Below, piece after piece: positions 12,007-58,320 of a stretch of 64,000 nucleotides of DNA. Under the pieces are notes generated by a model that did no database searches, had not been told where the DNA came from, and saw nothing but the letters and a program-made list of their open reading frames with translations. Source of the stretch: Longitalea arenae (GTDB taxonomy: Bacteria; Bacteroidota; Bacteroidia; Chitinophagales; Chitinophagaceae); contig NZ_JAFFJX010000002.1 of assembly GCF_016924755.1 (NCBI RefSeq), positions 806,001 through 870,000 of the forward strand, given 5' to 3'. Position 1 is the stretch's first letter. Every line of letters begins with the position of its first letter. The position numbers were made by a program, and so were the translations under genes.

Positions 12007-12106
12007 GCGTTACCGGTTTCAGGTTACAAGTTACAGGGCTTTTGAATATTGCCGAGGCCACCAGTTAAAAAGGCCCCGGTAACCGGCAACTGGTAACCGG
12101 TAACTA
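12007..12106. repeat. Paired heptad repeat, family A (CRGTTAC / GTAACYG)
   Basis: The left arm at 12007-12034 is four 7-base units (GCGTTAC, CGGTTTC, AGGTTAC, AAGTTAC). The right arm at 12079-12106 is four units (GTAACCG, GCAACTG, GTAACCG, GTAACTA), reverse-complementary in consensus. The 44-base loop begins with AGGGC and ends with GGCCCCG, which can extend the stem. It fills the leuA-leuB gap. Confidence 0.85.
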
Positions 12107-12107
12107 T

Positions 12108-13631
12108 TTAAATAAGATTCAACATCTTTTGAGTAGCCTTTATCGCCGCTACCGTTTGGTCGCTGTCGAGACCGCGGGTTTTGAATTCTTTTCCGTTAAA
12201 GCTCCAGGTGATAACGGTTTCGCAAAGGGCATCCGTTTTACCACCGGGCGGAATGCGCACGGCATAATCCGTTAATACCGGCAGTTCCTGTTTCAGCTTT
12301 TTATAAACCTTCTTCAGCGCATTCATGAAAGCATCGTATTGGCCATCGCCCTGCGCATGCTCTTCATGTAATTCGCTGTTGATCGATATTTTCAAAGTGG
12401 CTGAAGGATGAAGGCTTTTGGTGTGGGTGAGCACGTAATTGTCAATCCGCACTTTATCCTGGATATTCTTACTGTCGATCACATCGGAGATGATGTATGG
12501 CAGATCGGCCTGGGTAACCACTTCTTTCTTGTCGCCCAGCTCAATGATCCGCTGGGTAACTTTCTTGAGATCCGGTTCACTCAACTGAATGCCCAGTTGC
12601 GCCAGGTTATTTTCAATATTGGCCTTTCCACTGGTTTTGCCCAGGGCATAACGCCGCTGGCGGCCAAAACGTTCCGGCATCAGGTCGCTGAAATAAAGTT
12701 TGTTCTTTTTGTCGCCATCGGCATGAATACCCGCTGTTTGGGTGAACACGTTTTCACCTACCACCGGTTTGTTAACGGGGATGCGGAAACCGGAAAATGT
12801 TTCTACCAGTTTACTTACCCGGTACAAAGACGCTTCCTGTACTGAGGTCTTTACATCAGGCAGAAAATCGTTCAGCACGGCTACCGCACTGGCAAGGGGT
12901 GCATTACCCGCTCTTTCACCCATACCATTGATGGTAAGGTGAATGCCTTTGGCGCCGGCTTTTACACCTTCGAGCACATTGGCTGTGCCCAGGTCGTAAT
13001 CATTATGTGCATGAAAATCAAAATGCAGGTCGGGATAGCGTTTTACAATAGCCGAAATGTATTCAGTTACTTCCGACGGCGTCAGAATGCCAAGCGTATC
13101 TGGCAGCATGACGCGTTTTACCGGCAGCTTTTGAATGAAATCGAGGTACTGGAACACATATTCTTTTGAGTGGCGCATGCCATTGCTCCAGTCTTCAAGA
13201 TATACATTGACCTCGATGCCCTTTTTCCTTGCGAGTTTAATTACATCGGTAATTTCGGCAAAATGCTGTTCGGGTTTTTTCTTTAACTGGTGGGTGAGGT
13301 GATTCAGCGAACCCTTGGTAAGCAGGTTCATCACTTTGGCGCCGGCCTGCTGCATCCATTGAATAGATACATCGCCATCAACAAAAGTGAGCACTTCTAC
13401 CTGGTTCAAAAAGCCATTGGCTTTTGCCCATTTTGTAATGGCCTTTACTGCTTCAAATTCACCTTCGCTTACCCGGGCAGAAGCAATTTCAATGCGGTCT
13501 ACCTTCACTTCTGTCAACAGCAGTTGGGCAATAGTTAGTTTTTCGGTGGGGGAGAACGACACGCCGCTGGTTTGTTCGCCATCGCGGAGTGTGGTATCCA
13601 TAATCTCTATGTGTCGCTGGTCACCAGACAT
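12108..13631 (-). CDS. 2-isopropylmalate synthase / citramalate synthase-like enzyme
   Basis: This 507-residue enzyme has the HMG-CoA lyase-like barrel with the signature DTTLRDGEQ (residues 12-20), the metal-binding FHAHNDYDLGTAN and the GIHLTINGMGERAGNA segment, followed by a LeuA-type dimer/allosteric domain (about 370-507). It condenses acetyl-CoA with a 2-oxo acid. The position in a leuC-leuD-X-leuB cluster suggests a second isopropylmalate synthase-like enzyme, as in many Bacteroidota. (R)-citramalate synthase, which would feed isoleucine synthesis through LeuBCD, cannot be excluded from sequence. No canonical leuA is present in the window. The C-terminal GLDSDQTVAAIKAT segment is the usual regulatory end. 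Confidence 0.85.
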   Translation of the reverse strand: MSGDQRHIEIMDTTLRDGEQTSGVSFSPTEKLTIAQLLLTEVKVDRIEIASARVSEGEFEAVKAITKWAKANGFLNQVEVLTFVDGDVSIQWMQQAGAKVMNLLTKGSLNHLTHQLKKKPEQHFAEITDVIKLARKKGIEVNVYLEDWSNGMRHSKEYVFQYLDFIQKLPVKRVMLPDTLGILTPSEVTEYISAIVKRYPDLHFDFHAHNDYDLGTANVLEGVKAGAKGIHLTINGMGERAGNAPLASAVAVLNDFLPDVKTSVQEASLYRVSKLVETFSGFRIPVNKPVVGENVFTQTAGIHADGDKKNKLYFSDLMPERFGRQRRYALGKTSGKANIENNLAQLGIQLSEPDLKKVTQRIIELGDKKEVVTQADLPYIISDVIDSKNIQDKVRIDNYVLTHTKSLHPSATLKISINSELHEEHAQGDGQYDAFMNALKKVYKKLKQELPVLTDYAVRIPPGGKTDALCETVITWSFNGKEFKTRGLDSDQTVAAIKATQKMLNLI

Positions 13632-13639
13632 AACCTATT

Positions 13640-13699
13640 CAAATTTCAAATCACAAATTCCAGGAGCCAACCTGTTTGGAACCTGGAATTTGCATTTGG
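13640..13699. repeat. Paired heptad repeat, family D (CAAATTY)
   Basis: Three 7-base units (CAAATTT, CAAATCA, CAAATTC) run from 13640 to 13660. CAAATTCCAGG at 13654-13664 pairs perfectly with CCTGGAATTTG at 13682-13692. The element occupies nearly the whole leuD to leuA-like gap. Confidence 0.8.
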
Positions 13700-13706
13700 G
13701 TGCTTA

Positions 13707-14300
13707 TTAGTAGATGCTTTTTTCGGCGAATGACCTGATCTCGGATTTCAGGCTTTGCAGGTAATCGATATCATCGAAGCCATTCATCATATTGTGCTTT
13801 TTATAGCCATTGATCTCGAAAGTTTCAGAAGCACCGCCGACGATAGAGATCTTCTGTTCGGGAAGGTTTACTTCGAGCTCAGTTTTAGGATTGGCTTCTA
13901 TGGCCTTGAAGATCTGATCGAGGAAGGATTCGCTTACCTGTACCGGTAATATACCAATGTTCAGGGAGTTGTTCTTGAAGATGTCGGCAAAGAAACTGCT
14001 CACCACACAGCGGAAACCATAATCATAAATGGCCCAGGCTGCGTGCTCACGGCTGCTGCCGCTTCCGAAGTTTTTACCACCTACCAGTATTTTGCCGGAA
14101 TAGATGGGATTATTCAAAACAAAATCTTTTTTGGGGGTGCCATCGGCTTCAAAACGCCAGTCGCGGAACAGGTTATCACCAAATCCCTTGCGCTCGGTGG
14201 CTTTCAGGAATCGGGCCGGAATGATCTGATCGGTATCTACGTTCTCGATGGGCATCGGTACCGCGGTACTTCTTAATATTGTGAACTTATCGTAAGCCAT
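13707..14300 (-). CDS. leuD: 3-isopropylmalate dehydratase small subunit
   Basis: LeuD is the swivelling small subunit of isopropylmalate isomerase, which converts 2- to 3-isopropylmalate together with LeuC. The 197 residues match the family. Visible motifs are [12 protein letters not shown] (residues about 22-33) and the substrate-loop [21 protein letters not shown] (about 75-95). It is encoded directly downstream of leuC on the minus strand, separated by 159 bases that hold a heptad repeat element at 14311-14457. The spacing is unusually wide for two subunits of one enzyme. Confidence 0.97.
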
Positions 14301-14310
14301 TGTTTTGTTA

Positions 14311-14457
14311 GTCGTTTGTTGTTTGAGGTTTGTTGTTAGTGTTTATGGTTTATTGTTTTTAGTTTCTGGTTGTCCTCTTCAAACAGCCGTTGGTCTTCTA
14401 TTACTCAGGGATGCGAGCATTAAAACCATAAACTATAAACCAAAAACAAAAAACTGA
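14311..14457. repeat. Paired heptad repeat, family B (KRGTTTR / AAACYAT)
   Basis: Nine consecutive 7-base units run from 14311 to 14373 (GTCGTTT, GTTGTTT, GAGGTTT, GTTGTTA, GTGTTTA, TGGTTTA, TTGTTTT, TAGTTTC, TGGTTGT). After a 49-base loop, five units of the opposite sense run from 14423 to 14457 (AAACCAT, AAACTAT, AAACCAA, AAACAAA, AAACTGA). The element sits between leuC and leuD. Confidence 0.88.
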
Positions 14458-14459
14458 TT

Positions 14460-15863
14460 TTAAATGAGTTCTCTCGGATCCGTTACAAATCCCGTAACCG
14501 CAGCGGCTGCAGCTACCAGCGGGCTTGCCAGCATGGTTCTGGCGCCGGGGCCCTGGCGGCCTTCAAAATTGCGGTTGCTGGTGCTAACTGCATATTTACC
14601 GGCTGGGATCTTGTCGTCATTCATCGCCAGGCAGGCTGAACAACCGGGTTGACGCAACTGGAATCCTGCTTCCAGCAAAAGATCCAGGATACCTTCTTCC
14701 TTGATCTGTTGTTCAACGATGTGTGAACCCGGCACGATCCAGGCAGTCACATGGTCGGCCTTTTTACGGCCTTTGATCACAGAAGCAAAGGCACGGAAAT
14801 CCTCAATACGGCCATTGGTACAGCTGCCAATGAACACATAATCTACCTTTTTACCGATCATGCTTTCCTGCTCGTGGAAATCCATATAGGCTAAGGACTT
14901 GTCAAAGCTTGCTTTGCCACTGCCAATTTCTTCGGCAGTCGGGATCTTCTTGGTAATACCGATACCCATACCCGGATTGGTTCCGTAAGTGATCATGGGT
15001 TCTATATCAGCAGCGTTGAACTCATATTCTTTATCGAAGAATGCACCTTCATCGCTTTTCAGCGTTTTCCAGTAAGCCAGCGCTTTTTCCCAGGCTTCAC
15101 CTTTAGGCGCTTTCTCCCGGCCTTTGATGTAGTTAAAAGTTGTTTCATCAGGAGCAACCATACCACCGCGGGCGCCCATTTCAATACTCATGTTGCACAC
15201 GGTCATACGGCCTTCCATGCTCATATTCTCGAACACATCACCGGCAAATTCAACAAAATAACCGGTAGCGCCGGCTGCTGTGAGCTTCGAGATGATATAC
15301 AGCACCACGTCTTTGGGCGTAATGCCTTTACCCAGTTTGCCGTTCACTTTGATCCGCATTTTCTTCGGGCGGGGCTGCATGATACACTGGCTGGAAAGCA
15401 CCATCTCCACTTCAGAGGTACCGATCCCAAAGGCAATAGCGCCAAAAGCGCCATGGGTAGAAGTATGCGAATCACCGCATACGATGGTCATACCCGGCAG
15501 GGTAATGCCATTCTCGGGTCCCACAACGTGCACAATACCATTTTTGGGATTGCCCAGTCCCCAGTGTGAAATACCATATTTAGCCGAGTTGCTTTCCAGG
15601 GCTTTCAGCTGGTTGGCCGACAGGGGATCCTGAACGGGCAGGTGCTGGTTAATGGTGGGGGTATTATGATCGGCTGTCGCGAAGGTCTTCTCCGGGAACA
15701 TCACTTTCAATCCCCGGCTTTCCAGGCCCAAAAATGCTACCGGGCTGGTTACCTCGTGAATAAAATGCCGGTCAATAAACAACACATCAGGGCCATCTTC
15801 AATATGCCTGACCACATGCGAATCCCATACTTTGTCGAATAATGCAGCGGGGGTTTTGCTCAT
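14460..15863 (-). CDS. leuC: 3-isopropylmalate dehydratase large subunit
   Basis: LeuC is the iron-sulfur catalytic subunit of isopropylmalate isomerase. The 467 residues match the family, and aconitase-type motifs are all present: [24 protein letters not shown], and the 4Fe-4S ligands in FIGSCTNGR and [11 protein letters not shown]. It is the first gene of the minus-strand leu cluster. The promoter should lie in the 347-base gap it shares with the divergent GH3 gene. I found no leucine-rich leader peptide or T-box-like element there, so the mode of leucine control is not visible. Confidence 0.97.
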
Positions 15864-16210
15864 TTTATATAATTTAAATCAAGTTGCAAAATTCTTAAAA
15901 TATCGTCAGATTATAAGGGTTTTATGTGTATTTTTTCTAATAGTCGCGTTAAAAATGAAAAAACATCAAATTCTGAGTGAATCTGTTGCGATTTCTTCAA
16001 TTAATCTGCTAATTACATGAAAATGAGAAAACTTCCAACCTGTACCAGGCTGGTTCCCGATGGAAGCAATTTCAATTTTTTTCCTACCTTCAGCCTCTTC
16101 TAAGCATTCCCCCAACCAAATTTCATGAAGTACCGCGTGTAAGTTCTCATCCCGTTTACCGGTTTGAAACTGCATGAACATTTGTCTTATCTAAAATTCA
16201 ACTGTTTACA
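15864..16210. other. Divergent intergenic region, leuC / GH3
   Basis: 347 bases carry both promoters but no gene. The leuC-proximal half is very AT-rich. A hairpin at about 16031-16065 pairs CTTCC with GGAAG and AACC with GGTT; its role is unknown. No TAnnTTTG box could be assigned with confidence on either strand. Confidence 0.4.
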
Positions 16211-18601
16211 ATGAAATTTGCTACGTTCCTCTCTTTCTGTCTGTTCTGTTGTTTTTGCCATTTATATGCGCAACAACCTGCTTACAAAGATGCCAAACAA
16301 CCAGTGGCCAAACGGGTGGCCGATCTGCTCAGCCGCATGACGCTGGACGAAAAAGTGGCCCAGCTGCAAACCATGCATGCCGGGCGGCCTAAACTGGACG
16401 ATAAGCTGTTCAGCAATACCGCCAAACTCGACTCTTTATATAAGAATGGCATGGGCATGATCAATCCCGCTTTTGATGAGACCATGGATGTTACTATAGC
16501 TGCGCGTAACCGGCTGCAGGAATATCTGCGTACGAAGACCAGGCTGGGCATTCCCATCATTTTTATCGATGAAGCGCATCATGGACTGGTTCAGCGCCAG
16601 GTAGATGTGTTTCCCCATGGCATTGGTTTATCCTGCTCCTGGGATGTAAACCTGCTGGAAAAGATCTATACACATGCCGCCAAACAGGCGCGGGTTCGCG
16701 GAACCAGCCTCGTACTGTCGCCCGTAGTGGATGTCACCCGTGACCCCCGCTGGGGCCGCACTGGGGAAACCCTGGGCGAAGACCCTTATTTATGTGGTAT
16801 CCTGGGCAGCGCCATCGTACGCGGGTTCCAGGGCAGTAATAACGGCTCCATTGCCCCCGGCCATGTAGCTGCCACCCTGAAGCATTTTACCGGCCACGGC
16901 CAGTCAGAGAGCGGCAGCAACCAGGCGCCCGCCAACTACTCGCAACGGGTGATCAGGGAAGCCCATATGGAACCATTCCGCCTCTGCGTCAAATACGCCA
17001 ATCCAGCCGCTATCATGGCTTCTTATAATGAGATAGACGGTTTGCCTTCACACGGTAATAAATGGTTGCTGAAAGATGTATTGCGCAAAGAGTGGAATTA
17101 TAATGGTATCGTGGTCAGCGACTGGTTCGGCATCGATCAGTTGTGGAACAAACATTTTATTGCCACCGATCAGAAAGAAGCAGCGCTGAAAGCTTTCCAG
17201 GCCGGGGTAACCACCGATCTGCCTTATGGCGTCAATTACCGCCACCTGGGTACCCTGGTTAAAGAGAACAAGATCAACACCAAAACGCTCGACAGCGCCG
17301 TTGCCAAAATACTGGAGCTGAAATTCAGGCTTGGCCTCTTCGATGATCAGCAACCTATTGACCTGGAAAAAGCCAAAGAGAACGCGGCCGGTACGGAAGG
17401 CCGCCAGCTGGCCCTGAAAATAGCCGAAGAATCGATGGTCTTATTAAAGAATACACCCTTTGGCAATGGCAACGCCAATCTGCTGCCCTTGAAAAAAGAC
17501 CAGTATAAGAAGATCGCCGTGGTTGGTCCTATGGCCGCTGTCAATTACCTGGGCGATTACTCGGGGCTGCCGAGCAAGAATGTTTCCCTGCTGGAAGGGA
17601 TCACGAATAAAGTAGCAGGCAGTGCCGAAGTGCTGTATGCAAAAGGCTGCCTTATTACAAAAAATGGCGATAGCATCAGTCAGAATAACTACCAGTACAT
17701 CGACACCATCATTTTTCCAACCGCGGCAGAAAACGCCCAGCTGATCGATGAAGCGGTTAAAACCGCGCAACAGGCCGATATAGTAATAGTAGCAGTAGGA
17801 GAGAACGAGCAGTTGTCTCGAGAAGCCTGGGGCCCCAATCATTTTGGCGATATGGCCGATCTGCGCCTGCAAAGCCAGCAGGAAGACCTGGTAAAAGCGA
17901 TGGTGGCTACCGGTAAGCCGGTAGTGGTGTATTTAACGCATGGCCGTCCGCTCGCCATTCCCTGGGTTGCACAAAACGCGCATGCCATTGTAGATGGCTG
18001 GTTCATGGGCGAAGAAGCCGGCAATGCCTTCGCCAATATCCTGTTTGGCGACGTCAATCCTTCGGGCAAACTGACGATCACCTATCCCAAATCAACCGGA
18101 CAGGTGCCTGTTTTTTATAATCACAAACCCAGCGCCCGGTATTTTAATTATGTGGCTGAAGATAAAATGCCCCTGTATCCGTTTGGGCACGGGCTCAGCT
18201 ATACCACCTTTAGTTACTCGAAACCGCGGGTAAAAATGGCTACAGGCGCCCAGGCCAAAAAGACCAGCCTGGCCTCGGTGGAACCAGCCGGAAATCAGGT
18301 GTACGGTACCGTGGAAGTAGATGTAACCAATAGCGGGAGCATGGCAGGGGATGAGATCGTACAGTTGTACATTCGCCAGAAAGTAAGCAGTGCCACCCGC
18401 CCCGTAAAAGAGTTAAAGGATTTTACGCGTATTTCGCTTGAACCCGGACAAACCAAAACGGTTTCCTTTACCATTGACGCCGGCAAACTCGCCTTCTGGA
18501 ATGCCGACATGCAATATGCAGTAGAAACCGGCATATTTGAATGTATGGTAGGCCGCAGTTCAACCGACCTGCAAAAGGTTGAATTGAAAGTAGGTAAGTA
18601 A
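16211..18601 (+). CDS. Glycoside hydrolase family 3 (beta-glucosidase/xylosidase type)
   Basis: This secreted 796-residue GH3 enzyme has a signal peptide ending HLYAQ, so it is periplasmic or surface located. The order is GH3 N-terminal barrel (about 30-370), C-terminal alpha/beta sandwich (about 400-640) and a fibronectin III-like domain (about 690-790). SPVVDVTRDPRWGRTGE is the usual substrate-pocket motif, and Asp304 in GIVVSDW is the expected nucleophile. GHGQSESGSNQAPAN marks the xylosidase/glucosidase clade seen in Bacteroidota. It likely releases single sugars from short beta-linked oligosaccharides. It is monocistronic: a strong terminator follows at 18629-18656. The exact sugar cannot be read from the sequence. 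Confidence 0.92.
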   Translation: MKFATFLSFCLFCCFCHLYAQQPAYKDAKQPVAKRVADLLSRMTLDEKVAQLQTMHAGRPKLDDKLFSNTAKLDSLYKNGMGMINPAFDETMDVTIAARNRLQEYLRTKTRLGIPIIFIDEAHHGLVQRQVDVFPHGIGLSCSWDVNLLEKIYTHAAKQARVRGTSLVLSPVVDVTRDPRWGRTGETLGEDPYLCGILGSAIVRGFQGSNNGSIAPGHVAATLKHFTGHGQSESGSNQAPANYSQRVIREAHMEPFRLCVKYANPAAIMASYNEIDGLPSHGNKWLLKDVLRKEWNYNGIVVSDWFGIDQLWNKHFIATDQKEAALKAFQAGVTTDLPYGVNYRHLGTLVKENKINTKTLDSAVAKILELKFRLGLFDDQQPIDLEKAKENAAGTEGRQLALKIAEESMVLLKNTPFGNGNANLLPLKKDQYKKIAVVGPMAAVNYLGDYSGLPSKNVSLLEGITNKVAGSAEVLYAKGCLITKNGDSISQNNYQYIDTIIFPTAAENAQLIDEAVKTAQQADIVIVAVGENEQLSREAWGPNHFGDMADLRLQSQQEDLVKAMVATGKPVVVYLTHGRPLAIPWVAQNAHAIVDGWFMGEEAGNAFANILFGDVNPSGKLTITYPKSTGQVPVFYNHKPSARYFNYVAEDKMPLYPFGHGLSYTTFSYSKPRVKMATGAQAKKTSLASVEPAGNQVYGTVEVDVTNSGSMAGDEIVQLYIRQKVSSATRPVKELKDFTRISLEPGQTKTVSFTIDAGKLAFWNADMQYAVETGIFECMVGRSSTDLQKVELKVGK

Positions 18602-18628
18602 CCCGCTAACCTAAGAAGAACAAGTTCT

Positions 18629-18656
18629 GCCCCGGCCTCCCAGCCGGGGCTTTTTT
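18629..18656 (+). terminator. Intrinsic terminator of the GH3 gene
   Basis: GCCCCGGC pairs perfectly with GCCGGGGC around CTCCCA and is followed by six T. Confidence 0.92.
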
Positions 18657-18877
18657 CGTTCGGATGAACAGCATGTAAGAAATTATGAACTACAAAAAAT
18701 AATAATTACATTTGTTCACCCTCTTTCGTTTGCTTTGCTAAATGACCAATGCTCAGGTCTTTATTGGGCAGCTCGATTGTTTGTCATCCCTGAAAAGAAT
18801 CACTCCTTACAATTTTGTTATAATACCACTTTCTCATGCGCTTTTAATTGTCGCGGGTAAGCGATATAAGTTCCCGT

Positions 18878-18990
18878 TCCTATATTCGCGGTCCGAAAAA
18901 CCGCAGAGGTTGACCATGCCACGGTGCTGAGCTTATCGAGCGAAAAAGCGTGACAGGGTTTTCATCCTATATTCGCGGTCGGAAAAAACC
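18878..18990 (+). repeat. Direct repeat upstream of the porin gene
   Basis: TCCTATATTCGCGGTC followed by an A-rich tail ending in ACC occurs at 18878-18902 and again at 18965-18990, 87 bases apart. The second copy ends 14 bases before the porin ATG. Both are followed by a CCATG, so this may be a duplicated leader/promoter segment or a pair of regulator sites. Confidence 0.65.
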
Positions 18991-19004
18991 TAAAGAAACT
19001 TACC

Positions 19005-20405: not shown

Positions 20406-20453
20406 AAAAACAGCAATAAAATAAAACCCTGTAATAAGGGGAATAAAGTGGGT

Positions 20454-20552
20454 AGTAAGCAGCAAGCAGCTGGCAGGGGCTTCACGGAGAAAACTTCCCA
20501 CCAGCCACTTGCTGCTGGCTACTCGCTTTTCTTACTATTGGCTCCTCACTTT
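20454..20552. repeat. Paired heptad repeat, family C (AGYAAGC / GCTRCTN)
   Basis: Left units are AGTAAGC, AGCAAGC and AGCTGGC (20454-20474). Right units are GCCACTT, GCTGCTG, GCTACTC and GCTTTTC (20504-20531), with a degenerate tail to 20552. The arms are largely complementary (AGCAAGCAGCTGG against CCAGCCACTTGCT). It lies between the porin and YhcH genes. Confidence 0.75.
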
Positions 20553-21051: not shown

Positions 21052-21068
21052 AACGAATTATGAGTCAC

Positions 21069-21168
21069 CAGTTACCAGTTACCGGTTACCAGTTGCAGCC
21101 TGCTGCAAACGAATTGGACCTTCGAAAACTACAGCCCCGGGAGACCGGTAACCGGTAACCGGCGACTG
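21069..21168. repeat. Paired heptad repeat, family A (CRGTTAC / GTAACYG)
   Basis: The left arm at 21069-21096 is CAGTTAC, CAGTTAC, CGGTTAC, CAGTTGC. The right arm at 21141-21168 is GAGACCG, GTAACCG, GTAACCG, GCGACTG. Arms are 28 bases each and the loop is 44 bases, the same geometry as at 12007-12106. It lies between two convergent genes. Confidence 0.88.
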
Positions 21169-21172
21169 CGTC

Positions 21173-25859: not shown

Positions 25860-25980
25860 CAATTTCTGATTTCAAGATTTCGGAATTTTGAGATTTCATC
25901 TGGTTTTAGCCTTCCGGTAAATCGCAAAATCCCGAGATCTCAAAATCGCTAAATTCCTTACTTTACAATTCTTCATTCCT
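25860..25980. repeat. Paired octad repeat (GATTTCNN / NNAAATCN)
   Basis: Left arm 25860-25899 is five 8-base units: CAATTTCT, GATTTCAA, GATTTCGG, AATTTTGA, GATTTCAT. Right arm 25917-25980 is eight units, including GTAAATCG, CAAAATCC, CGAGATCT, CAAAATCG and CTAAATTC. The arms are complementary in consensus. It lies between susD and the UnbV gene, directly before the latter's start. Confidence 0.85.
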
Positions 25981-31462: not shown

Positions 31463-31490
31463 ATGGTGAATGGTGAATGGTCAATGGTGT
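31463..31490. repeat. Heptad repeat, family E (ATGGTSA)
   Basis: Four 7-base units (ATGGTGA, ATGGTGA, ATGGTCA, ATGGTGT) lie 12 bases upstream of the susC start. No clear opposite arm was found; a CCATTC at about 31503 could pair weakly. The remaining fecR-susC gap (31491-31749) shows no gene. Confidence 0.75.
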
Positions 31491-32811: not shown

Positions 32812-32953
32812 GTAGTTTTGTTTGTCTCTGCAGGCAGAGGTATAGATTAGTCGGTTAAGAAGGGCGCTTCCCTAAAGGGGAAGGAAAATTTATTGGGAGT
32901 AGGTTGAAAACTTAACCGTATAACGTTATTTGTTTCAGTGAAAATTCATTTAA

Positions 32954-33064
32954 CGGTTACCAGTTTCCAGTTACCAGTTGCCGGGCCTTGAATGTCGATC
33001 ACTCTACCTGCAGTCGGCAGGCTGATTTTGATCCCGGTAACCGGGAACCGGCAACCGGCGACTT
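32954..33064. repeat. Paired heptad repeat, family A (CRGTTAC / GTAACYG)
   Basis: Left arm 32954-32981: CGGTTAC, CAGTTTC, CAGTTAC, CAGTTGC. Right arm 33037-33064: GTAACCG, GGAACCG, GCAACCG, GCGACTT. Both arms are 28 bases; the 55-base loop starts CGGGCC and ends GATCCCG. It separates fecR from the PD40 gene. Confidence 0.88.
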
Positions 33065-33967: not shown

Positions 33968-33995
33968 AGCAGAAGGTTTAGGCAGGTTTTGATGG

Positions 33996-37799: not shown

Positions 37800-38410
37800 G
37801 GTCTTACAAAGATAGGGTTTGAACGGTGCCAACAGCCAGGCAAACCCGCTGATCACCCGGGCCGGACAGGATTTTTTTATCCCCAGGCTTTCTTATGCCT
37901 GCCAAAAATTATGTCTACAAATTCGTTCGCCTCAGACAACCGACCTTCTGGCAGAAATATCGTTTAAACGGTACAGCGAAACAGCGTCAAAAACCAACCG
38001 TGCCACGGTTTGCATCCGTAACACGGTTAAACCTTTTATTTCGCTTCATTTCCACGGCAGGGGTTCTTGAAAATCGAAAATATCCGGCCGTTGGTCCTTC
38101 ATTTTTTCCACAACGGCGAAAAAACGATAGCCCGTAACAGATAAATATTGAAATTGCTGCGCATAACAATACAATGCTCCCATTGTCATTTATCAGCATT
38201 TGTAACCCTGCCCCTAACCATCGTAATATTACTGGTTGCACTTTTATCAATAACCTCTTATCTGCTTAAAGCAGAACGCGCTAAACCCCGGAAAACAGGC
38301 AGGAAAATGGGAAGTTTCAAGACAGGCGTAGTATAAAAGCAATAGTGGATCCCGCATAAAATACCGGTAACCGCAAAGCGGCAACCGGCAATTATAAACT
38401 TATCTTATCT
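37800..38410. other. 611-base region without a convincing gene
   Basis: The region lies between a minus-strand hydrolase and a plus-strand lipoprotein, so it should hold two promoters. The only notable frame is a TTG-initiated 62-codon stretch at 38148-38336 with one hydrophobic segment; it has no ATG and I do not call it. A half heptad element lies at 38367-38394. Confidence 0.45.
38367..38394. repeat. Half heptad element, family A right arm
   Basis: Four 7-base units (GTAACCG, CAAAGCG, GCAACCG, GCAATTA) give the 28-base right arm of family A. No matching left arm was found upstream, so it may be a decayed copy. It ends 16 bases before the next ATG. Confidence 0.75.
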
Positions 38411-44679: not shown

Positions 44680-44693
44680 TCGTCAGAAGGTGA

Positions 44694-44799
44694 ATGGTCA
44701 ATGGTCAATGGTGAATAACAGCTGCCGAAAGTATAGTGAGGACCGATGAAGCGTGAGGCTTGTATTTAAAGAACAACAAACCATAAACAATAAACTATA
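44694..44799. repeat. Mixed heptad element (ATGGTCA units, then AACNATA units)
   Basis: Units ATGGTCA, ATGGTCA, ATGGTGA occupy 44694-44714. After a 57-base loop, AACAACA, AACCATA, AACAATA and AACTATA occupy 44772-44799. The two sides are only partly complementary (ATGGT against ACCAT), so it combines a family E arm with a family B arm. It fills the gap between the saccharopine dehydrogenase and DUF1338 genes. Confidence 0.78.
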
Positions 44800-44828
44800 A
44801 ACCCCTGAACGGGTGAGGATAAATAAAT

Positions 44829-45722: not shown

Positions 45723-45744
45723 ATGCTGCAAGCTGGTGCTACAG

Positions 45745-45769
45745 GTGCCACACTTTGAAAGTGTGGCAC
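45745..45769. repeat. 25-base perfect palindrome (REP-like), copy 1
   Basis: GTGCCACACTTT and AAAGTGTGGCAC are exact reverse complements around a single G. A near-identical copy lies at 56391-56413. It sits 22 bases after the DUF1338 stop codon. Confidence 0.88.
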
Positions 45770-45895
45770 ACTTCGTTAAAGGGAACACCTGAGGCAACCT
45801 TTTGGTCCGGTTTTCCGACTTTGTGAGTTACCATACATATCCTGGAATTCGGTATCTTTCGGGCACAGACCAAGCATGTAAAAAAATAACATATC

Positions 45896-50053: not shown

Positions 50054-50153
50054 GTGTACGGGTTTATTGTGAATGAAATTGGGTTTGCGATAGCAACAGG
50101 GACAACTCTCACGTATTATAGAAACAACTAAATAGTATAATTGTACTAAAGCG

Positions 50154-50233
50154 GAGATATGCCGGACTTAAAAAAAGGCGAGATAACAGCGGGACAAGTC
50201 CGGGATATCTCGGGGATATCTCCGGGATATCCT
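50154..50233. repeat. Inverted repeat with iterated GGGATATC units
   Basis: GAGATATGCCGGACTT (50154-50169) pairs with AAGTCCGGGATATCTC (50196-50211) at 15 of 16 positions. The right arm continues as two further GGGATATC-containing units of 11-12 bases to about 50233. Confidence 0.8.
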
Positions 50234-50507: not shown

Positions 50508-50515
50508 TATTTTTG
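50508..50515 (+). promoter_or_regulatory. Candidate -7 box for ftsE
   Basis: TATTTTTG fits TAnnTTTG and lies 20 bases before the ftsE ATG. No clear TTG -33 element was found at the expected distance. Confidence 0.4.
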
Positions 50516-50535
50516 TTTCAACTTAACGGATCAGT

Positions 50536-52327: not shown

Positions 52328-52330
52328 TGG

Positions 52331-53416
52331 CTAGAATATGTTTTTATAGAACTCCAATAGCTTTTTTTCTTCCTGCTGCCAGTTAATGGCTTCTCTTGCC
52401 TGTAAACAATTTTGTTGCAAACGGTTATACAATTTTTTGTTATTTAATAATTCATTCAGCCCCCCGGCTATTGTTTCGGGGCGCAGGTCTTTTATTAGAA
52501 CAGCCACATCGTGCTGATTGTTTATTTCCTGGTAAGCCGGGTAATCAACACACAATTGGGGTAGCCCGGCATGCAGGTAGTCAAAGAAGCGGTTTCCCAG
52601 CGAATGGTAATTGTTCAAACCATTGTTTTCGAACAGCGTTACCCCTGCCCAGGCCTGCAGGGTATACTGCCGCAATTCCGCGGGCAGGATTTTTCCTTTA
52701 AAGATCACTTTACCGGTAAGTCCATGCTCCTTTACCAGTTCCCGGGCGGCCTGCATAAAATTTCCGTCACCACAGATCACCAGGCGGGCATTTACCTGTT
52801 TCATAGCGGGTATCAGGGTCTCAAAACTACGGCCTTCGTTCACGGCTCCCTGGTAAATAATATAACGCTCGGGTTTATCGGGTATCGTAATGGGATACAA
52901 AACGGGCACATTCCGCACCACGGCATACTGTACCTGATACAAGCGGTAAAATTCCCGGGCAATGGCGTCATTGACGGTATAGCCGTATTTAAATTTTGGT
53001 ACGGTATATTGCTCTACCTTTTTCCAGATCCGGTATACCGCCGGGCGGGTGACCACTTCTTTCATTTCGCAGAACAATTCATGCGCATCGTATACCCGGG
53101 GCACTGCTTTCAGCTTTGAGATAAAATAAAAGGGAAGGATCGTGTCCAGGTCAATAGCGCAAACCGCATCGGCCTTTTTAAATAATAAGTAGAGGAAGAG
53201 GCGCAGATTGTATTCCAGGTAGCTGATCTTGCCGGTCCTGAAGAAGCAAAACAGCCTTTTTTGCTGAAAGGGCCGCGGCACGAGGGCAGGGGATGCAGCC
53301 CATCGCCGTCCGATGAGGCTTACCCGGTAACCAGCTTCGGCCAGGGATGTACAGATGCGTATCATCCGCTGGTCGTAGTTCAGGTCGTTGGTGACGGCGA
53401 AAACGAGGTGTTTCAT
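52331..53416 (-). CDS. Glycosyltransferase family 4
   Basis: This 361-residue protein starts at the ATG at 53416 (MKHLVFAVTNDLNYDQRMIR), with six fewer residues than the longest frame. It has the GT-B two-domain form: AEAGYRVSLIGRRW near the N-terminus, AVCAIDLDTILPFYFISKLK and VYDAHELFCE in the first domain, then YIIYQGAVNEGRSFETLIPAM, RLVICGDGNF, VIFKGKILP and the donor-binding ENNGLNNYHSLGNRFFDYLHAGLPQ. Together with the downstream transferase it probably builds an extracellular or lipid-linked glycan. A family A heptad element lies just upstream. Confidence 0.9.
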   Translation of the reverse strand: MKHLVFAVTNDLNYDQRMIRICTSLAEAGYRVSLIGRRWAASPALVPRPFQQKRLFCFFRTGKISYLEYNLRLFLYLLFKKADAVCAIDLDTILPFYFISKLKAVPRVYDAHELFCEMKEVVTRPAVYRIWKKVEQYTVPKFKYGYTVNDAIAREFYRLYQVQYAVVRNVPVLYPITIPDKPERYIIYQGAVNEGRSFETLIPAMKQVNARLVICGDGNFMQAARELVKEHGLTGKVIFKGKILPAELRQYTLQAWAGVTLFENNGLNNYHSLGNRFFDYLHAGLPQLCVDYPAYQEINNQHDVAVLIKDLRPETIAGGLNELLNNKKLYNRLQQNCLQAREAINWQQEEKKLLEFYKNIF

Positions 53417-53475
53417 ACGGTTTGAGAACGGCAATGATATATAAATGTTTGCAAATCACTAAATTTATCTGTCAC

Positions 53476-53574
53476 CAATTACCAGTTACCAGTTGCCGGT
53501 TGCCGGCGCTGCCATGCAGGCAGCTTGATTATAGGCGGAGAGGTCGAATCCTGGGCCCCGGAAACCGGTGACGG
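53476..53574. repeat. Paired heptad repeat, family A (right arm decayed)
   Basis: Left arm 53476-53503: CAATTAC, CAGTTAC, CAGTTGC, CGGTTGC. Right arm: GAAACCG and GTGACGG (53561-53574), after which the phase is lost. The loop is 57 bases and ends GGGCCCCG, like the copy at 12007-12106. Confidence 0.82.
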
Positions 53575-53643
53575 TTCCCGCCGCAAAATAGTGTTTTTAA
53601 AAAAAATATCCCCATCCTATCCACTCAAATAGAATTTATTATA

Positions 53644-53651
53644 TACCTTTG
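53644..53651 (+). promoter_or_regulatory. Candidate -7 box for rpsO
   Basis: TACCTTTG fits the TAnnTTTG consensus 47 bases before the rpsO ATG. No convincing -33 motif is visible. Confidence 0.5.
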
Positions 53652-53698
53652 CCGGCAAATTAAGAAGAAAATTTTTGGATGTCTTTAAACAAATTGAG

Positions 53699-53971
53699 AT
53701 GCCTTATTTAACAAAAGAGAAAGTTTCAAGCATTTTTGCACAATACGGTGGCGATGCTAAAAACACAGGGTCCGTAGAGGGACAAATCGCGTTGCTGACA
53801 GAACGCATCAACAGTATTTCTTTACACCTTCAACAGAACAAGAAGGATTTCTCTACTCACCGCGGTCTGATGACAATGGTGGGCCAGCGCAAACGCCTTC
53901 TGAACTACTTAAGCAAACATAACCTGCAAGGTTACCGCGCTTTAATTGAAAAACTTGGCATCAGAAAATAA
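53699..53971 (+). CDS. rpsO: 30S ribosomal protein S15
   Basis: S15 binds 16S rRNA early in small-subunit assembly. The ATG at 53699 (MPYLTKEKVSSIF) gives 90 residues, the usual length; an upstream ATG adding eight residues is rejected. Visible signatures are GSVEGQIALLTERI (about 27-40) and LHLQQNKKDFSTHRGLMTMVGQRKRLLNYL (about 43-72), the core rRNA-binding helices. It is followed by a perfect 16-bp terminator and then pnp, the same order as in many bacteria. Confidence 0.97.
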   Translation: MPYLTKEKVSSIFAQYGGDAKNTGSVEGQIALLTERINSISLHLQQNKKDFSTHRGLMTMVGQRKRLLNYLSKHNLQGYRALIEKLGIRK

Positions 53972-53986
53972 GTGTATATAATAATA

Positions 53987-54030
53987 AACAACTATTCCCA
54001 ACTGAACGTCGGTTGGGAATAGTTGTTTTT
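53987..54030 (+). terminator. Intrinsic terminator between rpsO and pnp
   Basis: A 16-base arm, AACAACTATTCCCAAC, pairs perfectly with GTTGGGAATAGTTGTT, then a T run. In other bacteria, hairpins at this position are processed to control rpsO and pnp stability. Confidence 0.93.
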
Positions 54031-54146
54031 GCTATACTTTTTTTTCTGAACTTGTTGCTTTAATAACCTGGTCGCTGATGAATCTCCGGCTCTACATCCC
54101 ACCTATGCCGAAGGATATCAGCTGCCATAAACTACAATTTTAGAAT

Positions 54147-56294
54147 ATGCTCTCTCAACCAATTAGCGTAACTTTTGATATAGGGGGCGGACGCGAGGTT
54201 TCTATTGAAACCGGCCGCCTGGCCCGTCAGGCAGACGGAGCCGTAACGGTTCGCCAGGGCAATTGTATCTTACTGGCCACAGTTGTTGCCAATAAAGAAC
54301 CCAAGGAAGGACAGGAGTTCTTTCCCCTGGTAGTTGATTATATGGAAAAATTTGCGGCCGCCGGCCGTATCCCCGGTTCATTCTTCAAACGCGAAGGCAA
54401 ACTGAGCGATTATGAAGTGCTGGTGAGCCGGTTGATCGACCGCGCTTTGCGCCCGCTTTTCCCGGAAGATTATTTTTGCGATGTACAGGTGCTGGTAACG
54501 CTTATTTCAAGCGATAAAGAAGTAATGCCCGATGCACTGGCCTGCCTGGCCGCATCTGCAGCCCTGGCCGTTTCAGATATTCCCATTAAAGAGATCATTT
54601 CCGAAGTGCGTATAGGCCGCGTAGAAGGTCAGTACATCGTAAACCCCACTCGCAGTGAATTGGCCAATGCCGACATGGATTTCATGATTGGCGCTACCAG
54701 CAAGAACCTGATGATGGTGGAAGGCGAATCTGAAGAATGCAGTGAAGAAGACCTCGTGAAAGCCCTCGAGATCGCCCACGATGCGATCCGCATTCAGATC
54801 AAAGCCCAGGAAGAACTGCGCGCCAAAGTAGGCGTTCAAGGTAAACGGGAATATACCAAACCCGAGCAGAATCCTGAGCTGCAACAAAAAGTGATCGATT
54901 TCGCCAAAGATAAGATCTACCAGATCGCCCGCGCTGCTTCTGCCAAACACGACAGGAACGATGCGATCGATAACCTGAAAAAAGAACTGATCGAAAGCCT
55001 CGGCGAAGACGCTGAAGATGATGTTAAGAAAAAGGCTAAAAAATATTTCGACGACCTGCAATGGGAAGTGGTTCGTAATATGATCCTCGATGACCGCATC
55101 CGCTTGGATGGCCGTCAGCTCGACCAGGTTCGTCCGCTGAACATGGAAGTGGATATCCTGCCTTCGCCGCACGGTTCCGCTTTATTCACCCGTGGTGAAA
55201 CGCAATCTTTAACAACGGTCACTTTGGGTACGCCTTTAGATGAACTGCTGGTAGAAAGCGCCGCCACGTCTGACTACACCAAATTCATTTTACACTATAA
55301 CTTCCCGCCATTCTCAACCGGGGAGGTGAAAATGATGCGGGCGCCCGGCCGCCGCGAAGTAGGTCACGGTAACCTGGCCATGCGGTCACTGAAACAAATG
55401 ATGCCGGGTAATGAATATCCTTATACCGTTCGTATCGTAAGCGATATCCTGGAATCGAATGGTTCTTCTTCGATGGCTACCGTATGCGCCGGTTCGCTGG
55501 CCCTGATGGATGCCGGTGTGCCTATTCCCAAACACGTAAGTGGTGTGGCCATGGGTTTGATCACCCGCGCCAGCGATGGTAAATACGCCATTCTTACCGA
55601 TATCCTGGGCGATGAAGATCACCTGGGTGATATGGACTTCAAAGTAACCGGTACCCGCGAAGGCATTTGCGGTGTACAAATGGATATCAAGATAGACGGT
55701 TTAAGCATGGATACCATGCGTGAAGCGCTGGCGCAAGCCCGCAACGGCCGACTGCACATCCTCGATGCCATGTATGAAAGTATCGCCGAAGCAAGAGCGG
55801 AGGTGAAACCACATGCACCAAGAATGGAAAAACTCTTCATCGACAAGGAATTTATTGGTGCTGTGATCGGGCCCCAGGGTAAGATCATCCAGGAAATTCA
55901 ACGCGAAACCGGAACTACCATCAATATTGAAGAAATTGGTAACTACGGTGAAGTGAGCATCTTTAGTCCGGCCAAGGAAGGGCTTGAAAAAGCCGTTGCC
56001 TGGATCAAAGGCATCGTTGCCGTTCCTGAAGTAGGTTCAGTGTACGAAGCCACCGTGAAAGGCATTAAGGAATTCGGCGCATTTGTTGAATTCTTACCTG
56101 GCAAACAAGGTTTGTTACACATCAGCGAGATCAGCTGGAAACGCCTCGAAAGCATGGAAGGGGTGTTGAAAGAAGGCGATAAGCTGAAAGTGAAACTGAT
56201 CGGCATCGACCATAAGACCGGCAAGTTCAAACTGAGCCGTAAGATCCTGATGCCAAAACCAGAAGGTAAAAAACCTGAAAGTCCAACGTCATAG
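54147..56294 (+). CDS. pnp: Polyribonucleotide nucleotidyltransferase (PNPase)
   Basis: PNPase degrades RNA 3' to 5' with phosphate and is a core part of RNA turnover. The 715 residues contain the first RNase PH-like domain (about 10-145), an alpha-helical domain (about 150-300), the second catalytic domain (about 310-550: FSTGEVKMMRAPGRREVGHG, GSSSMATVCAGSLALMDAG), a KH domain (about 560-615: IGAVIGPQGKIIQEIQRETG) and an S1 domain (about 625-695: GSVYEATVKGIKEFGAFVEF). Order and length are standard. It lies downstream of rpsO and ends at its own terminator. Confidence 0.98.
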   Translation: MLSQPISVTFDIGGGREVSIETGRLARQADGAVTVRQGNCILLATVVANKEPKEGQEFFPLVVDYMEKFAAAGRIPGSFFKREGKLSDYEVLVSRLIDRALRPLFPEDYFCDVQVLVTLISSDKEVMPDALACLAASAALAVSDIPIKEIISEVRIGRVEGQYIVNPTRSELANADMDFMIGATSKNLMMVEGESEECSEEDLVKALEIAHDAIRIQIKAQEELRAKVGVQGKREYTKPEQNPELQQKVIDFAKDKIYQIARAASAKHDRNDAIDNLKKELIESLGEDAEDDVKKKAKKYFDDLQWEVVRNMILDDRIRLDGRQLDQVRPLNMEVDILPSPHGSALFTRGETQSLTTVTLGTPLDELLVESAATSDYTKFILHYNFPPFSTGEVKMMRAPGRREVGHGNLAMRSLKQMMPGNEYPYTVRIVSDILESNGSSSMATVCAGSLALMDAGVPIPKHVSGVAMGLITRASDGKYAILTDILGDEDHLGDMDFKVTGTREGICGVQMDIKIDGLSMDTMREALAQARNGRLHILDAMYESIAEARAEVKPHAPRMEKLFIDKEFIGAVIGPQGKIIQEIQRETGTTINIEEIGNYGEVSIFSPAKEGLEKAVAWIKGIVAVPEVGSVYEATVKGIKEFGAFVEFLPGKQGLLHISEISWKRLESMEGVLKEGDKLKVKLIGIDHKTGKFKLSRKILMPKPEGKKPESPTS

Positions 56295-56335
56295 TCATTA
56301 GCAATTTGCTATTCGACAATTGGCAAATATGATAC

Positions 56336-56368
56336 AAAGGCCTGTAACTAAAATTGCAGGCCTTTTTT
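56336..56368 (+). terminator. Intrinsic terminator of pnp
   Basis: AAAGGCCTG pairs with CAGGCCTTT and is followed by a T run. It is 23 bases ahead of the REP-like palindrome copy 2. Confidence 0.9.
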
Positions 56369-56390
56369 ATTTAAGGTGTTATTTGAGCCA

Positions 56391-56413
56391 TGCCACATTT
56401 TCAAAGTGTGGCA
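56391..56413. repeat. REP-like palindrome, copy 2
   Basis: TGCCACATTTT and AAAGTGTGGCA flank a C. One C-to-T change from copy 1 (45745-45769) converts a G-C pair to G-T, so the hairpin can still form in RNA. It lies in the leader of prmA. Confidence 0.85.
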
Positions 56414-56438
56414 CAGCCACCACCCCAACTTTTCAACT

Positions 56439-57254
56439 ATGCAGAATTATATACATGTCAGGTTCCAGCCTGTAACAAAAGAACAACAGGAGATCTTGAT
56501 CGCCCAATTAAGTGAACTGGGTTATGAAGGATTTGAGGAAGGCATCCATTTTATTTCAGCCTATATACCCGAAGAACAATTTAATGAACCGGATACTTAT
56601 GCGTTGATCGCCGGTACAGATACTTCTGTTTCAAAAGAAGTAATAGCACCCCGCAACTGGAACGAGGAATGGGAACAGCATTTTCATCCTGTTATCATTG
56701 ATGCATTCTGCGGTATACGCGCTCATTTTCATGCCCCCCTGCAACAGGTACAGCACGAGATCATCATTACGCCCAAAATGAGTTTTGGCACCGGGCATCA
56801 CGCTACCACACACCTGATGATCCAGGCCATGCAGCAGCTATCCTTCACCGGTAAAAATGTACTTGATTTTGGAACGGGCACCGGCGTATTGGCGATACTG
56901 GCAGAAAGGCTGGGCGCCAACCCGGTGCTTGCTATTGATAATGATGAATGGAGCATTAACAATGCGCAGGAAAATATAGCGCTTAATCACTGTTCAAACA
57001 TCACCATAGCGCAGGCAGATAGTTTACAAATGTCAACGGAATTCGACATAATCTTGGCCAATATCAATAAGCATGTACTTATTGCAAATATGCAGGCAAT
57101 TAAACAACATTTAACATTAGGTGGCGTTGTAATAATGAGCGGTCTTTTGATCGGGGACAGACCCGATATCGAAAAGTCGGCTATTGATTGTGGATTATCA
57201 GTTCTGGCGTGTAAGACAAGGGGAGATTGGATGTGTTTACTGTTAAAAAAATAA
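56439..57254 (+). CDS. prmA: Ribosomal protein L11 methyltransferase
   Basis: This is a 271-residue methyltransferase from the ATG at 56439; the longer frame from 56376 would translate the REP-like palindrome and is rejected. NWNEEWEQHFHPVII, PKMSFGTGHHATTHLMIQAM, VLDFGTGTGVLAILAERLGA (SAM site, about 145-165), AIDNDEWSINNAQEN and FDIILANINKHVL are the full PrmA set. It trimethylates lysines and the N-terminus of L11. It follows pnp after a terminator. Confidence 0.95.
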   Translation: MQNYIHVRFQPVTKEQQEILIAQLSELGYEGFEEGIHFISAYIPEEQFNEPDTYALIAGTDTSVSKEVIAPRNWNEEWEQHFHPVIIDAFCGIRAHFHAPLQQVQHEIIITPKMSFGTGHHATTHLMIQAMQQLSFTGKNVLDFGTGTGVLAILAERLGANPVLAIDNDEWSINNAQENIALNHCSNITIAQADSLQMSTEFDIILANINKHVLIANMQAIKQHLTLGGVVIMSGLLIGDRPDIEKSAIDCGLSVLACKTRGDWMCLLLKK

Positions 57255-57333
57255 TAACAGCAAGAACATGATAGTTACCAATTAATTAACTTTTTTTCCA
57301 TATTTTCGTCATCTAACTTCAACCAACTATTCA

Positions 57334-57993
57334 ATGAAAGAAGCTTTACTCATTGTAATAGCATATTTGATCGGCTCTATTCCAACAGCAGTTTGGGTTA
57401 GTAAAGCGTTTTTTGGAATCGATATCCGTGAATATGGCAGCGGAAATGCCGGTGCTACCAATACTTTCCGCGTTTTAGGCTCCAGATGGGGCACTTTTGT
57501 CATGATTATTGACATGTTAAAGGGCGTAGCCGCCACCAGCCTGTATATTTTACTTCCTTTTTATATGAGCGGGGCCAATGAGTGGGAGCGCACCAACTTT
57601 ATGGTTGGACTGGGCTTAGCCGCTGTATTAGGCCATATATTCCCGATCTGGGCCGATTTCCGGGGCGGGAAAGGGGTTGCCACCCTTTTTGGAATGATCC
57701 TCGCCATTCAGCCCCTGGTGGCCGTATTGTGCGTAGGCATTTTCCTCCTGGTTTTATATCTCACCCGTTTCGTATCACTCAGCTCCATACTTGCCAGCAT
57801 TGCCTTCGCCGTGTTCATCCTGGTGATCTTTAATGAAAAAGAGCCATTGTACCGGGCCTTTGCCATTGCGGTGGCCTTACTGGTAGTTCTTACACACCAG
57901 AAGAATATCTCCCGCCTCTTACGTGGCAGCGAAAGCAAAGTTCCTATCTTAAAGTACCGTGACCGCCGCAGAGAGCGCAGAAGAAACAAATAA
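57334..57993 (+). CDS. plsY: Glycerol-3-phosphate 1-O-acyltransferase (acyl-phosphate dependent)
   Basis: PlsY transfers the acyl group of acyl phosphate to glycerol 3-phosphate, the first step of phospholipid synthesis. The 219-residue protein has five or more membrane helices and the three family motifs: GSIPTAVWVSKAF followed by REYGSGNAGATNTFRVLG (about 28-50), GHIFPIWADFRGGKGVATLFG (about 95-115) and a later SLSSILASIAF. The basic C-terminal tail (DRRRERRRN) ends just one base before the heptad array at 57994 begins. Confidence 0.95.
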   Translation: MKEALLIVIAYLIGSIPTAVWVSKAFFGIDIREYGSGNAGATNTFRVLGSRWGTFVMIIDMLKGVAATSLYILLPFYMSGANEWERTNFMVGLGLAAVLGHIFPIWADFRGGKGVATLFGMILAIQPLVAVLCVGIFLLVLYLTRFVSLSSILASIAFAVFILVIFNEKEPLYRAFAIAVALLVVLTHQKNISRLLRGSESKVPILKYRDRRRERRRNK

Positions 57994-58184
57994 CGGTTTG
58001 TGGTTTATGGTTTGTTGTTTGTGGTTGTTCAATCTTTTGGGCTCGCTATAAACAGGTTTATAGTTTATGGTTTGTGGTTTGTAGTTGTTCAACCTTTTGC
58101 GCTCGCTACTGATAGTTAAACAGGTTTATAGTTTATCGTTTTTTGTTTATGGTTGATCAATTTTTTCTGCTCGCTACTGAGCCT
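57994..58184. repeat. Three tandem units of five family B heptads plus a fixed tail
   Basis: Each unit has five 7-base TGGTTTA-like repeats (starting 57994, 58054 and 58122) followed by a TCAAYYTTTT-xx-GCTCGCTA segment. Unit lengths are about 60, 68 and 63 bases. It starts immediately after the plsY stop codon. Confidence 0.87.
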
Positions 58185-58320
58185 TAGCTCATGAACCTGG
58201 GAACTTAACAACTCGCGGACCATAGAAACTAATAACTCATGGACTCATGAAGTGAATGACTTAAGAACTTAGAAACTGAATAACTTAAGAACTCATGAAC
58301 TGATTAACTCATGAAGCGAT
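58185..58320. repeat. Degenerate octad array of 17 units
   Basis: Seventeen consecutive 8-base units without a phase change; examples are TAACTCAT, GAACTCAT, GAACTTAA, GGACTCAT, GAACTGAT and TAACTTAA. Consensus is about GAACTYAT. It directly follows the family B array and ends 179 bases before the M48 gene start. Confidence 0.87.

Follow-up and report, generated by a model that had tools for sequence, protein, structure and literature searches.

Period-7 and period-8 arrays in Longitalea arenae suggest an overlooked family of hairpin-bounded genetic elements

The gaps between genes in the bacterium Longitalea arenae contain tandem arrays of seven- and eight-base units, some of which face an inverted partner nearby. 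We analyzed these arrays in a 64-kb stretch of the genome (contig NZ_JAFFJX010000002.1, positions 806,001 to 870,000; hereafter the window), in 800 kb more of the same genome, and in the genomes of nearer and more distant relatives. The results suggest an overlooked family of genetic elements. In the reading that we favor, and to which we give an even chance of being correct, the arrays are the arms of a family of hairpin-bounded intergenic elements, a gene-carrying form of which encodes the 23S rRNA intervening-sequence protein (PF05635), and the copies in the window are gene-free relatives of that form.

Results

Arrays in the L. arenae sample (864 kb, made up of the window and the additional 800 kb) were counted by a period scan, in the main count at a score of at least 12. 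Genes were called by a simple script, and the borders of the gaps are therefore approximate. Intergenic arrays number 53 at period 7 and 34 at period 8, against one to five at each other period from 2 to 13, while seven and five arrays of these two periods lie inside genes; multiples of 7 and 8 echo the main peaks. With a milder mismatch penalty the whole sample yields 76 arrays of period 7 and 46 of period 8, compared with 0 to 9 at the other periods from 4 to 12. An earlier sequence-only reading of the window had anticipated an excess of this periodicity over randomized intergenic DNA, and such an excess is clear: across periods 6 to 9, five Markov versions of that DNA yield only 0 or 1.

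The arrays are built from many different words, which we have grouped under family letters of our own. Period-7 units are RGTTRCC (A), GGTTTRT (B), GGTSAAT (C), GCAATNG (D), GCTKAAG (E), AACTNTG (F) and AAACGNA (G), and period-8 units are GATTTNNG (H), CTRATNTG or GATAATNTG (I) and AACTNATG (J). The word of family C is that of family A reversed (RGTTACC, CCATTGR), probably by chance. An inverted partner lies within 300 bp, at a score of at least 14, for 52 of 150 arrays, versus 6 with a mirror control and 2 with a complement control. Of 244 codirectional gaps 63 contain arrays, as do 16 of 63 convergent ones; divergent gaps have them more rarely (9 of 81). In codirectional gaps, 29 of 102 arrays begin no more than 12 nt from the stop codon. 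By eye, one element (C11:779130) has a terminator-like hairpin inside its loop.

L. arenae and its sister genomes (designated by G numbers) form a genus set that carries the genus label Niastella. The PF05635 model has matches in all nine genus genomes searched, with 2 to 14 in each and 72 in total. Six of these are in L. arenae, all of them outside the window, and the gene is absent from every window site. Thirty loci high in the score list of the 72 matches were fetched, and the 29 with full flanks were compared with 112 small genes of L. arenae, among which PF05635 genes were left in. Complementary flanks (score of at least 19) enclose the PF05635 gene at 29 of 29 loci and 2 of the 112 control genes; flanks that are complementary and also carry period-7 or period-8 arrays on both sides are found at 22 of 29 loci and at one control gene. 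The ratio of nonsynonymous to synonymous changes (pN/pS) is 0.11 to 0.24 in 17 orthologue pairs from three sites, in many of which synonymous changes are saturated, and we therefore take the PF05635 protein to be under purifying selection. Its profile matches two PDB structures, 2gsc and 2rld, and more weakly another chain, 7a8s.

Gene-carrying and gene-free forms have arms of the same kinds. In L. arenae, families A (C22:439303), H (C22:473824) and B (C22:942300) are common to PF05635 elements and gene-free arrays. The gap between leuA and leuB (the leu gene names are inferred from Pfam) is occupied by different forms in different species. In G400, G399 and G397 it measures about 530 to 550 bp, and arms surround an open frame that matches PF05635, in G397 partially (model positions 31 to 105 in a frame of 84 residues). 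Among the six other species, L. arenae, G401, G396 and G395 have a gene-free hairpin, G398 a short remnant, and G403 neither. The three species with the gene are not neighbors in a tree of the leu genes, some inner nodes of which are weak (support 0.24 and 0.82); repeated loss, repeated gain, or transfer are possible accounts of this distribution.

Many arrays are followed by the motif (G)AATACAG, independently of the unit word. AATACA near array ends was seen 26 times in L. arenae where 4.5 were expected (378 flanks), 15 times against 4.2 in G400 (132 flanks), 12 against 4.6 in G396 (168 flanks) and 6 against 1.7 in G401 (124 flanks); the 14 flanks of G395 gave nothing. The motif lies within 16 nt of an array end in 64 cases, whereas permuted words give 2 to 8 and the overlapping word TACAAA gives 23. 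A version of it, GGAATACAG, stands 3' of the left arm of the PF05635 element at C22:439303, and enrichment upstream of the genus PF05635 genes is moderate (11 of 29 against 3.7 expected). The idea that AATACAG marks PF05635 elements in genomes outside the genus is not supported (2 upstream against 2.2 expected).

The sequence-only reading had also held that the unit changes while pairing is retained. This is supported at orthologous gaps and at orthologous PF05635 loci, where arms pair better within a species than across species. By eye, the spacers of leuC-leuD-leuA-leuB hold hairpins of differing words at the same gap in sister species. In 241 kb compared with G401, G400 and G396, within-species pairing exceeded cross-species pairing in 17 of 17 cases (8, 4 and 5, respectively); this count and another of 37 of 37 are biased because the arm segments were chosen for within-species pairing. 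An unbiased version used the whole 200-nt flanks of 24 PF05635 loci at seven orthologous sites, which were grouped by eye from flanking sequence and bear labels of our own (obgE, gltX, argC and others). Within-species pairing was the higher in 28 of 37 pairs, with a mean of 28.1 against 21.4 across species, and re-pairing reached the observed sum in 3 of 20,000 instances. Unit length changes as well: at the site labeled obgE the step is 8 in loci L131, L137, L138 and L153 and 9 in L142.

Among 588 aligned gap pairs we found 31 clean length differences of at least 40 bases, 16 of them with period-7 or period-8 arrays and none with arrays of period 5, 6, 9, 10 or 11. Several of the 16 fall in the same gaps, with growth inside arrays. 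At two places a whole element is present or absent: at window position 20406 it is present in G401 and G395, and G400 has a short gap without it; at C22:894768 G401 differs from L. arenae. Both patterns are consistent with insertion.

Two sister spacers are modular. One in G396 (contig C5), orthologous to C22:998218-998488 of L. arenae, is 538 bp long and consists of about eight tandem modules, each with a few GTTACAG-type heptads and a GGGAATACAAAATACAG-type joint, and it ends in a full hairpin. The other, a 603-bp spacer of G400 (contig C198), is made of GCTGCAA-type heptads in about seven modules of 81 bp linked by AATACAGGCGAAAG; its orthologue in the window (33968-33995) is 28 bp long.

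At the level of the phylum, 90 of the 118 genomes sampled have a PF05635 match. A single-protein query over named genomes of several phyla returned at least 566 loci, the best 80 of which were used. These come from Bacteroidota, Nitrospirae, Planctomycetes, Verrucomicrobia, Desulfobacteraceae, KSB1, Elusimicrobia and others, many of them metagenome bins. At the 76 usable loci, 7 or 8 is the best period of 35 left flanks and 54 right flanks, and flank complementarity reaches 19 at 48 loci, compared with 146 of 1,500 crossed flanks. At the 69 full-length loci, period 7 or 8 is found in 81 of 138 near flanks versus 6 of 138 flanks about 1 kb away. Rfam detected no rRNA in the 20 non-Bacteroidota loci scanned. 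One locus from a KSB1 metagenome bin (L266) has two Acido-Lenti-1 RNAs near the PF05635 gene (2486-2531 and 3059-3104).

A three-unit family A pattern with one mismatch allowed has 579+435 matches in L. arenae and from 3+2 to 175+297 in nine sister genomes, and matches 14 of 59 genomes; a narrower pattern matches 6 of 395 genomes in the phylum sample, L. arenae included. Another family A pattern has 583 matches, against 39 for its control. The reversed pattern, tried as a control in the 59- and 395-genome scans, is unclean because family A reversed is the family C word. Array density per 100 kb is 14.1 in L. arenae, 4.0 in G033 and 3.0 in G029, and four genomes without a PF05635 match gave no arrays (160 kb in all). 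As a predictor of array density, the number of PF05635 genes is unsupported in this small sample of genomes.

Sites in the window

The sequence-only reading listed 13 gaps with period-7 or period-8 arrays and saw paired arms throughout. The arrays are real, and paired arms are present at about half of the sites, so that its claim of a universal paired-arm layout was too strong and its observation as a whole is partly confirmed (Table 1). Arrays were found by Tandem Repeats Finder (TRF), the period scan, or both at 11 of the 13 sites, one of them (38363) by TRF alone. Of the other two, the site given as 25860 was misplaced, its array at 25919-25956 being missed by both TRF and the period scan (it lies below the scan threshold), and that given as 20454 is a strong hairpin poor in tandem copies. 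Six sites (12009, 13647, 14328, 20445, 21063 and 32954) passed an arm-pairing threshold of 13. When ten sites were folded as RNA, eight beat their shuffles (z from -2.8 to -5.3) and two did not (44685, z +0.09; 53470, z -0.95). Two of the eight fold in other ways: 38360 as one short hairpin, and 57995 by pairing of module to module rather than of left arm on right arm. No partner arm was visible by eye at 25919, 31463 and 58185, which the folding set excluded, and the two arms of the site given as 44694 belong to different unit families.

Table 1. Array and hairpin sites of the window
Position	Strand	Feature	Arms and arrays	Evidence
12009..12104	.	Two-armed element, family A (RGTTRCC), leuB-leuA gap	Arms 12009-12035, 12076-12104; array at 12009	Period scan, arm score, fold z -3.3
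13638..13698	.	Two-armed element, CAAATYY-type units, leuA-leuD gap	Array at 13638	Period scan, arm score, fold z -3.7
14307..14454	.	Two-armed element, family B (GGTTTRT), leuD-leuC gap	Arms 14307-14371, 14423-14454; array at 14307	Period scan, arm score, fold z -2.8
20445..20529	.	Strong hairpin, AGCAAGC-type units, few tandem copies, gap after stop codon		Arm score, fold z -4.2
21063..21167	.	Two-armed element, family A, between convergent genes	Array at 21063	Period scan, arm score, fold z -3.8
25919..25956	.	Single array, 4-5 eight-base AAATCNCA-type units (first given as 25860)	One arm	By eye
31463..31488	.	Single array, family C (GGTSAAT); about one unit in sister G401	Array at 31463	TRF, period scan, sister comparison
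32950..33062	.	Two-armed element, family A	Arms 32950-32982, 33034-33062; array at 32950	Period scan, arm score, fold z -5.3
38363..38391	.	Family A half element folding as a single short hairpin	Array at 38363	TRF, fold z -3.9
44689..44802	.	Family C array facing family B array; no better fold than shuffles	Arrays 44689-44716 (C), 44772-44802 (B)	Period scan, fold z +0.1
53474..53575	.	Family A array with weak right arm, upstream of S15 gene	Array 53474-53506	TRF, fold z -0.95
57995..58157	.	Three tandem modules, each a family B array and a similar GTTCAAYCTTTT..GCTCGCTA-type segment; one module in G401	Array 57995-58157	TRF, period scan, fold
58185..58315	.	Eight-base array, family J (AACTNATG-type), without clear partner arm	Array 58243-58315	TRF, period scan

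The window has no match to an Rfam family at the gathering threshold. A BLAST search of the loops against all spacers returned mostly array matches; among the matches listed, the loop at window position 32975 resembles the spacer starting at C22:447593 outside the arrays (E 0.001). Three further features of the window were recorded. Each of the three spacers in the leuCDAB run (10880-15863) has its own repeat hairpin. At 45723-45895 a hairpin around GTGCCACACTTTGAAAGTGTGGCAC follows a stop codon, and by eye sister species have other hairpin-like sequences in the same gap. At 50199-50231 the 11-mer TCCGGGATATC stands three times between divergent genes, and sister species have related words.

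Discussion

We propose that the arrays are arms of hairpin-bounded elements seated in gene gaps, often right after a stop codon, that the gene-carrying form encodes the PF05635 protein, and that the window copies are its gene-free relatives. The arrays may grow by slippage, in steps of 7 or 8 bases, and the two arms may be kept alike at the DNA level, for example through template switching from arm to arm in a cruciform or in a single-stranded hairpin. The PF05635 protein may act on the hairpin through shape and spacing rather than sequence. Gene-free copies would then derive from gene-carrying ones or spread by the same machinery. More tentatively, and with considerable doubt, we suggest a widespread class of DNA elements spanning several phyla, defined by a PF05635 protein and by arms that are recognized through their 7/8 spacing and their pairing rather than their sequence and are actively rewritten together, the words changing and the match persisting, of which gene-free copies would fill hundreds of Niastella spacers (an extrapolation from 64 candidates in 1.04 Mb).

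A number of observations weigh against the view that the arrays belong to one hairpin-bounded family with a PF05635-carrying form. At the threshold used, no partner was found for 98 of the 150 arrays. The 29 PF05635 loci were drawn from nine genomes and all 112 control genes from a single one, and of 30 loci in other genomes of the phylum only 4 pass a strict arm test and 10 a loose one. To the bias in the counts of 17 of 17 and 37 of 37 is added that one or two of the 17 are not arrays. Downstream of the genus PF05635 genes the AATACAG motif shows no enrichment (4 against 3.7 expected), and it gives no signal in the phylum set either. No arrays were present in 100 kb from each of two genomes that have 11 and 13 PF05635 genes (G065 and G103). 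As grouped by eye, 24 of the 29 genus loci lie at seven gaps common to at least two species, and recent movement of the gene-carrying form is therefore not seen. The loops of gene-free copies are mostly dissimilar by eye, whereas recent copying predicts otherwise. Finally, few clean whole-element differences were found, and target duplications were not seen at the insertions. Subject to this last point, the role of a non-autonomous mobile element is the best fit among those that the sequence-only reading listed, because gene-carrying versions share arm kinds and a few whole elements are present or absent between sisters; movement itself is a possibility. The interpretation given in that reading is partly supported overall.

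The lack of partners for many arrays and the absence of arrays from the two PF05635-rich genomes are what would be expected if the arrays were satellites of 7- and 8-mers made by slippage, with hairpins arising by chance or by quasi-palindrome template switching and PF05635 genes as passengers. Heptamers are reported to be the most abundant long simple repeats in most genomes, for which slippage has been offered as the explanation (Mrazek et al. 2007, as cited in PMC4679880). We nevertheless regard this account as rather unlikely. Inverted partners are far above the controls, the period-7/8 signal is concentrated in the near flanks of PF05635 genes and not 1 kb away, a common motif follows arrays of unrelated units, and the PF05635 protein is under purifying selection. 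Less plausible by far is an account in which another enzyme acts on the hairpins, for instance a single-strand (Y1/REP-associated) transposase, and PF05635 genes are cargo that the hairpins have acquired. The shape of the hairpins, their dispersion, and the whole-element differences at window position 20406 and at C22:894768 would fit such an enzyme. Repetitive extragenic palindromic (REP) sequences and bacterial interspersed mosaic elements (BIME), however, are built on a short palindrome with a fixed tetranucleotide and come with a REP-associated transposase, whereas the unit words here vary freely between loci.

The hairpins might instead be mRNA elements that RNase III cuts and that serve in processing or stability, in the manner of rRNA intervening sequences moved to mRNA spacers; the mRNA stabilizer and attenuator roles in the sequence-only reading are of this kind. 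The position of arrays close behind stop codons and their rarity in divergent gaps speak for such roles, as does the folding of eight of ten window sites better than shuffles, and the intervening sequence of Coxiella, which RNase III cuts, has a stem and heptamer repeats together with an S23p gene (PMC4990558). Both aspects of position can, however, also be explained by avoidance of promoters. Furthermore, pairing in the sense RNA predicts that G.U mismatches outnumber A.C mismatches, and in 106 elements from codirectional gaps the opposite is found: the sense strand has 131 mismatches of G.U type and 177 of A.C type (32 versus 45 by element), and 93 versus 145 and 75 versus 114 at stricter thresholds, the direction being unchanged. 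Because neither the counts from one element nor orthologous elements are independent of each other, we read this result as giving no support to sense-RNA pairing; pairing in an antisense RNA would also yield an excess of A.C. Upkeep at the DNA level is therefore favored over upkeep through the sense RNA, and we consider a function in mRNA unlikely.

Relation to known systems

Cyanobacterial short tandemly repeated repetitive (STRR) heptamers resemble the elements described here in having degenerate seven-base units in dispersed arrays; we know of no gene-carrying form or paired arms among them.

The sequence-only reading knew of no named element of this design, which is incomplete, as both heptamer repeats and rRNA intervening sequences are precedents (PMC4679880; PMC4990558). 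Direct repeats of the heptamer TAACTGA have been described in Beggiatoaceae, Cyanobacteria and some Bacteroidetes, and assemblages of other heptamers in Bacteroidetes have been noted (PMC4679880). Like our arrays these are intergenic tandem heptamers, and by our reading the family A form AGTTACC is one base off that word. Tandem copies of exactly TAACTGA are not among the units listed in the 864-kb sample, which are other 7- and 8-mers. The TAACTGA system uses one fixed word and, in the main genome studied, lies mostly before start codons, with one inverted set in 170 (PMC4679880); the parts of that paper covered mention neither paired arms like those here nor a link to PF05635.

PF05635 proteins are said to have no known function (PMC4990558). 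The family, a four-helix bundle, has been described as resembling Avd of diversity-generating retroelements (PMC10053308). Among the papers listed, we found none that links PF05635 genes outside rRNA to arms of 7- or 8-base units, in a search that left most subscription papers and bioRxiv preprints outside its reach. Such a tie to paired arms would give this widespread protein family a candidate substrate. It would also carry the notion of an intervening sequence outside rRNA and account for some of the heptamer repeats in bacterial spacers, and the elements would be a natural example of two DNA arms whose words change in concert.

The closest known system, and the best precedent, is the 23S rRNA intervening sequence (IVS) of Coxiella burnetii, which carries an S23p gene. 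It has tandem heptamers that vary in copy number between strains, and it is described as a selfish element (PMC4990558). In both systems a PF05635/S23p gene lies in a loop closed by inverted repeats. The complementary terminal stem of an IVS has its counterpart at 29 of 29 genus PF05635 loci and, at an arm score of 13, at 6 of the 13 window sites; the S23p (PF05635) gene that an IVS may carry is found in the genus and at no window site. An IVS is inserted in a 23S or 16S rRNA gene and excised by RNase III, whereas the elements here lie between protein genes. Unlike the Coxiella IVS, most of them are without a gene, and both of their arms are built of 7- or 8-mers.

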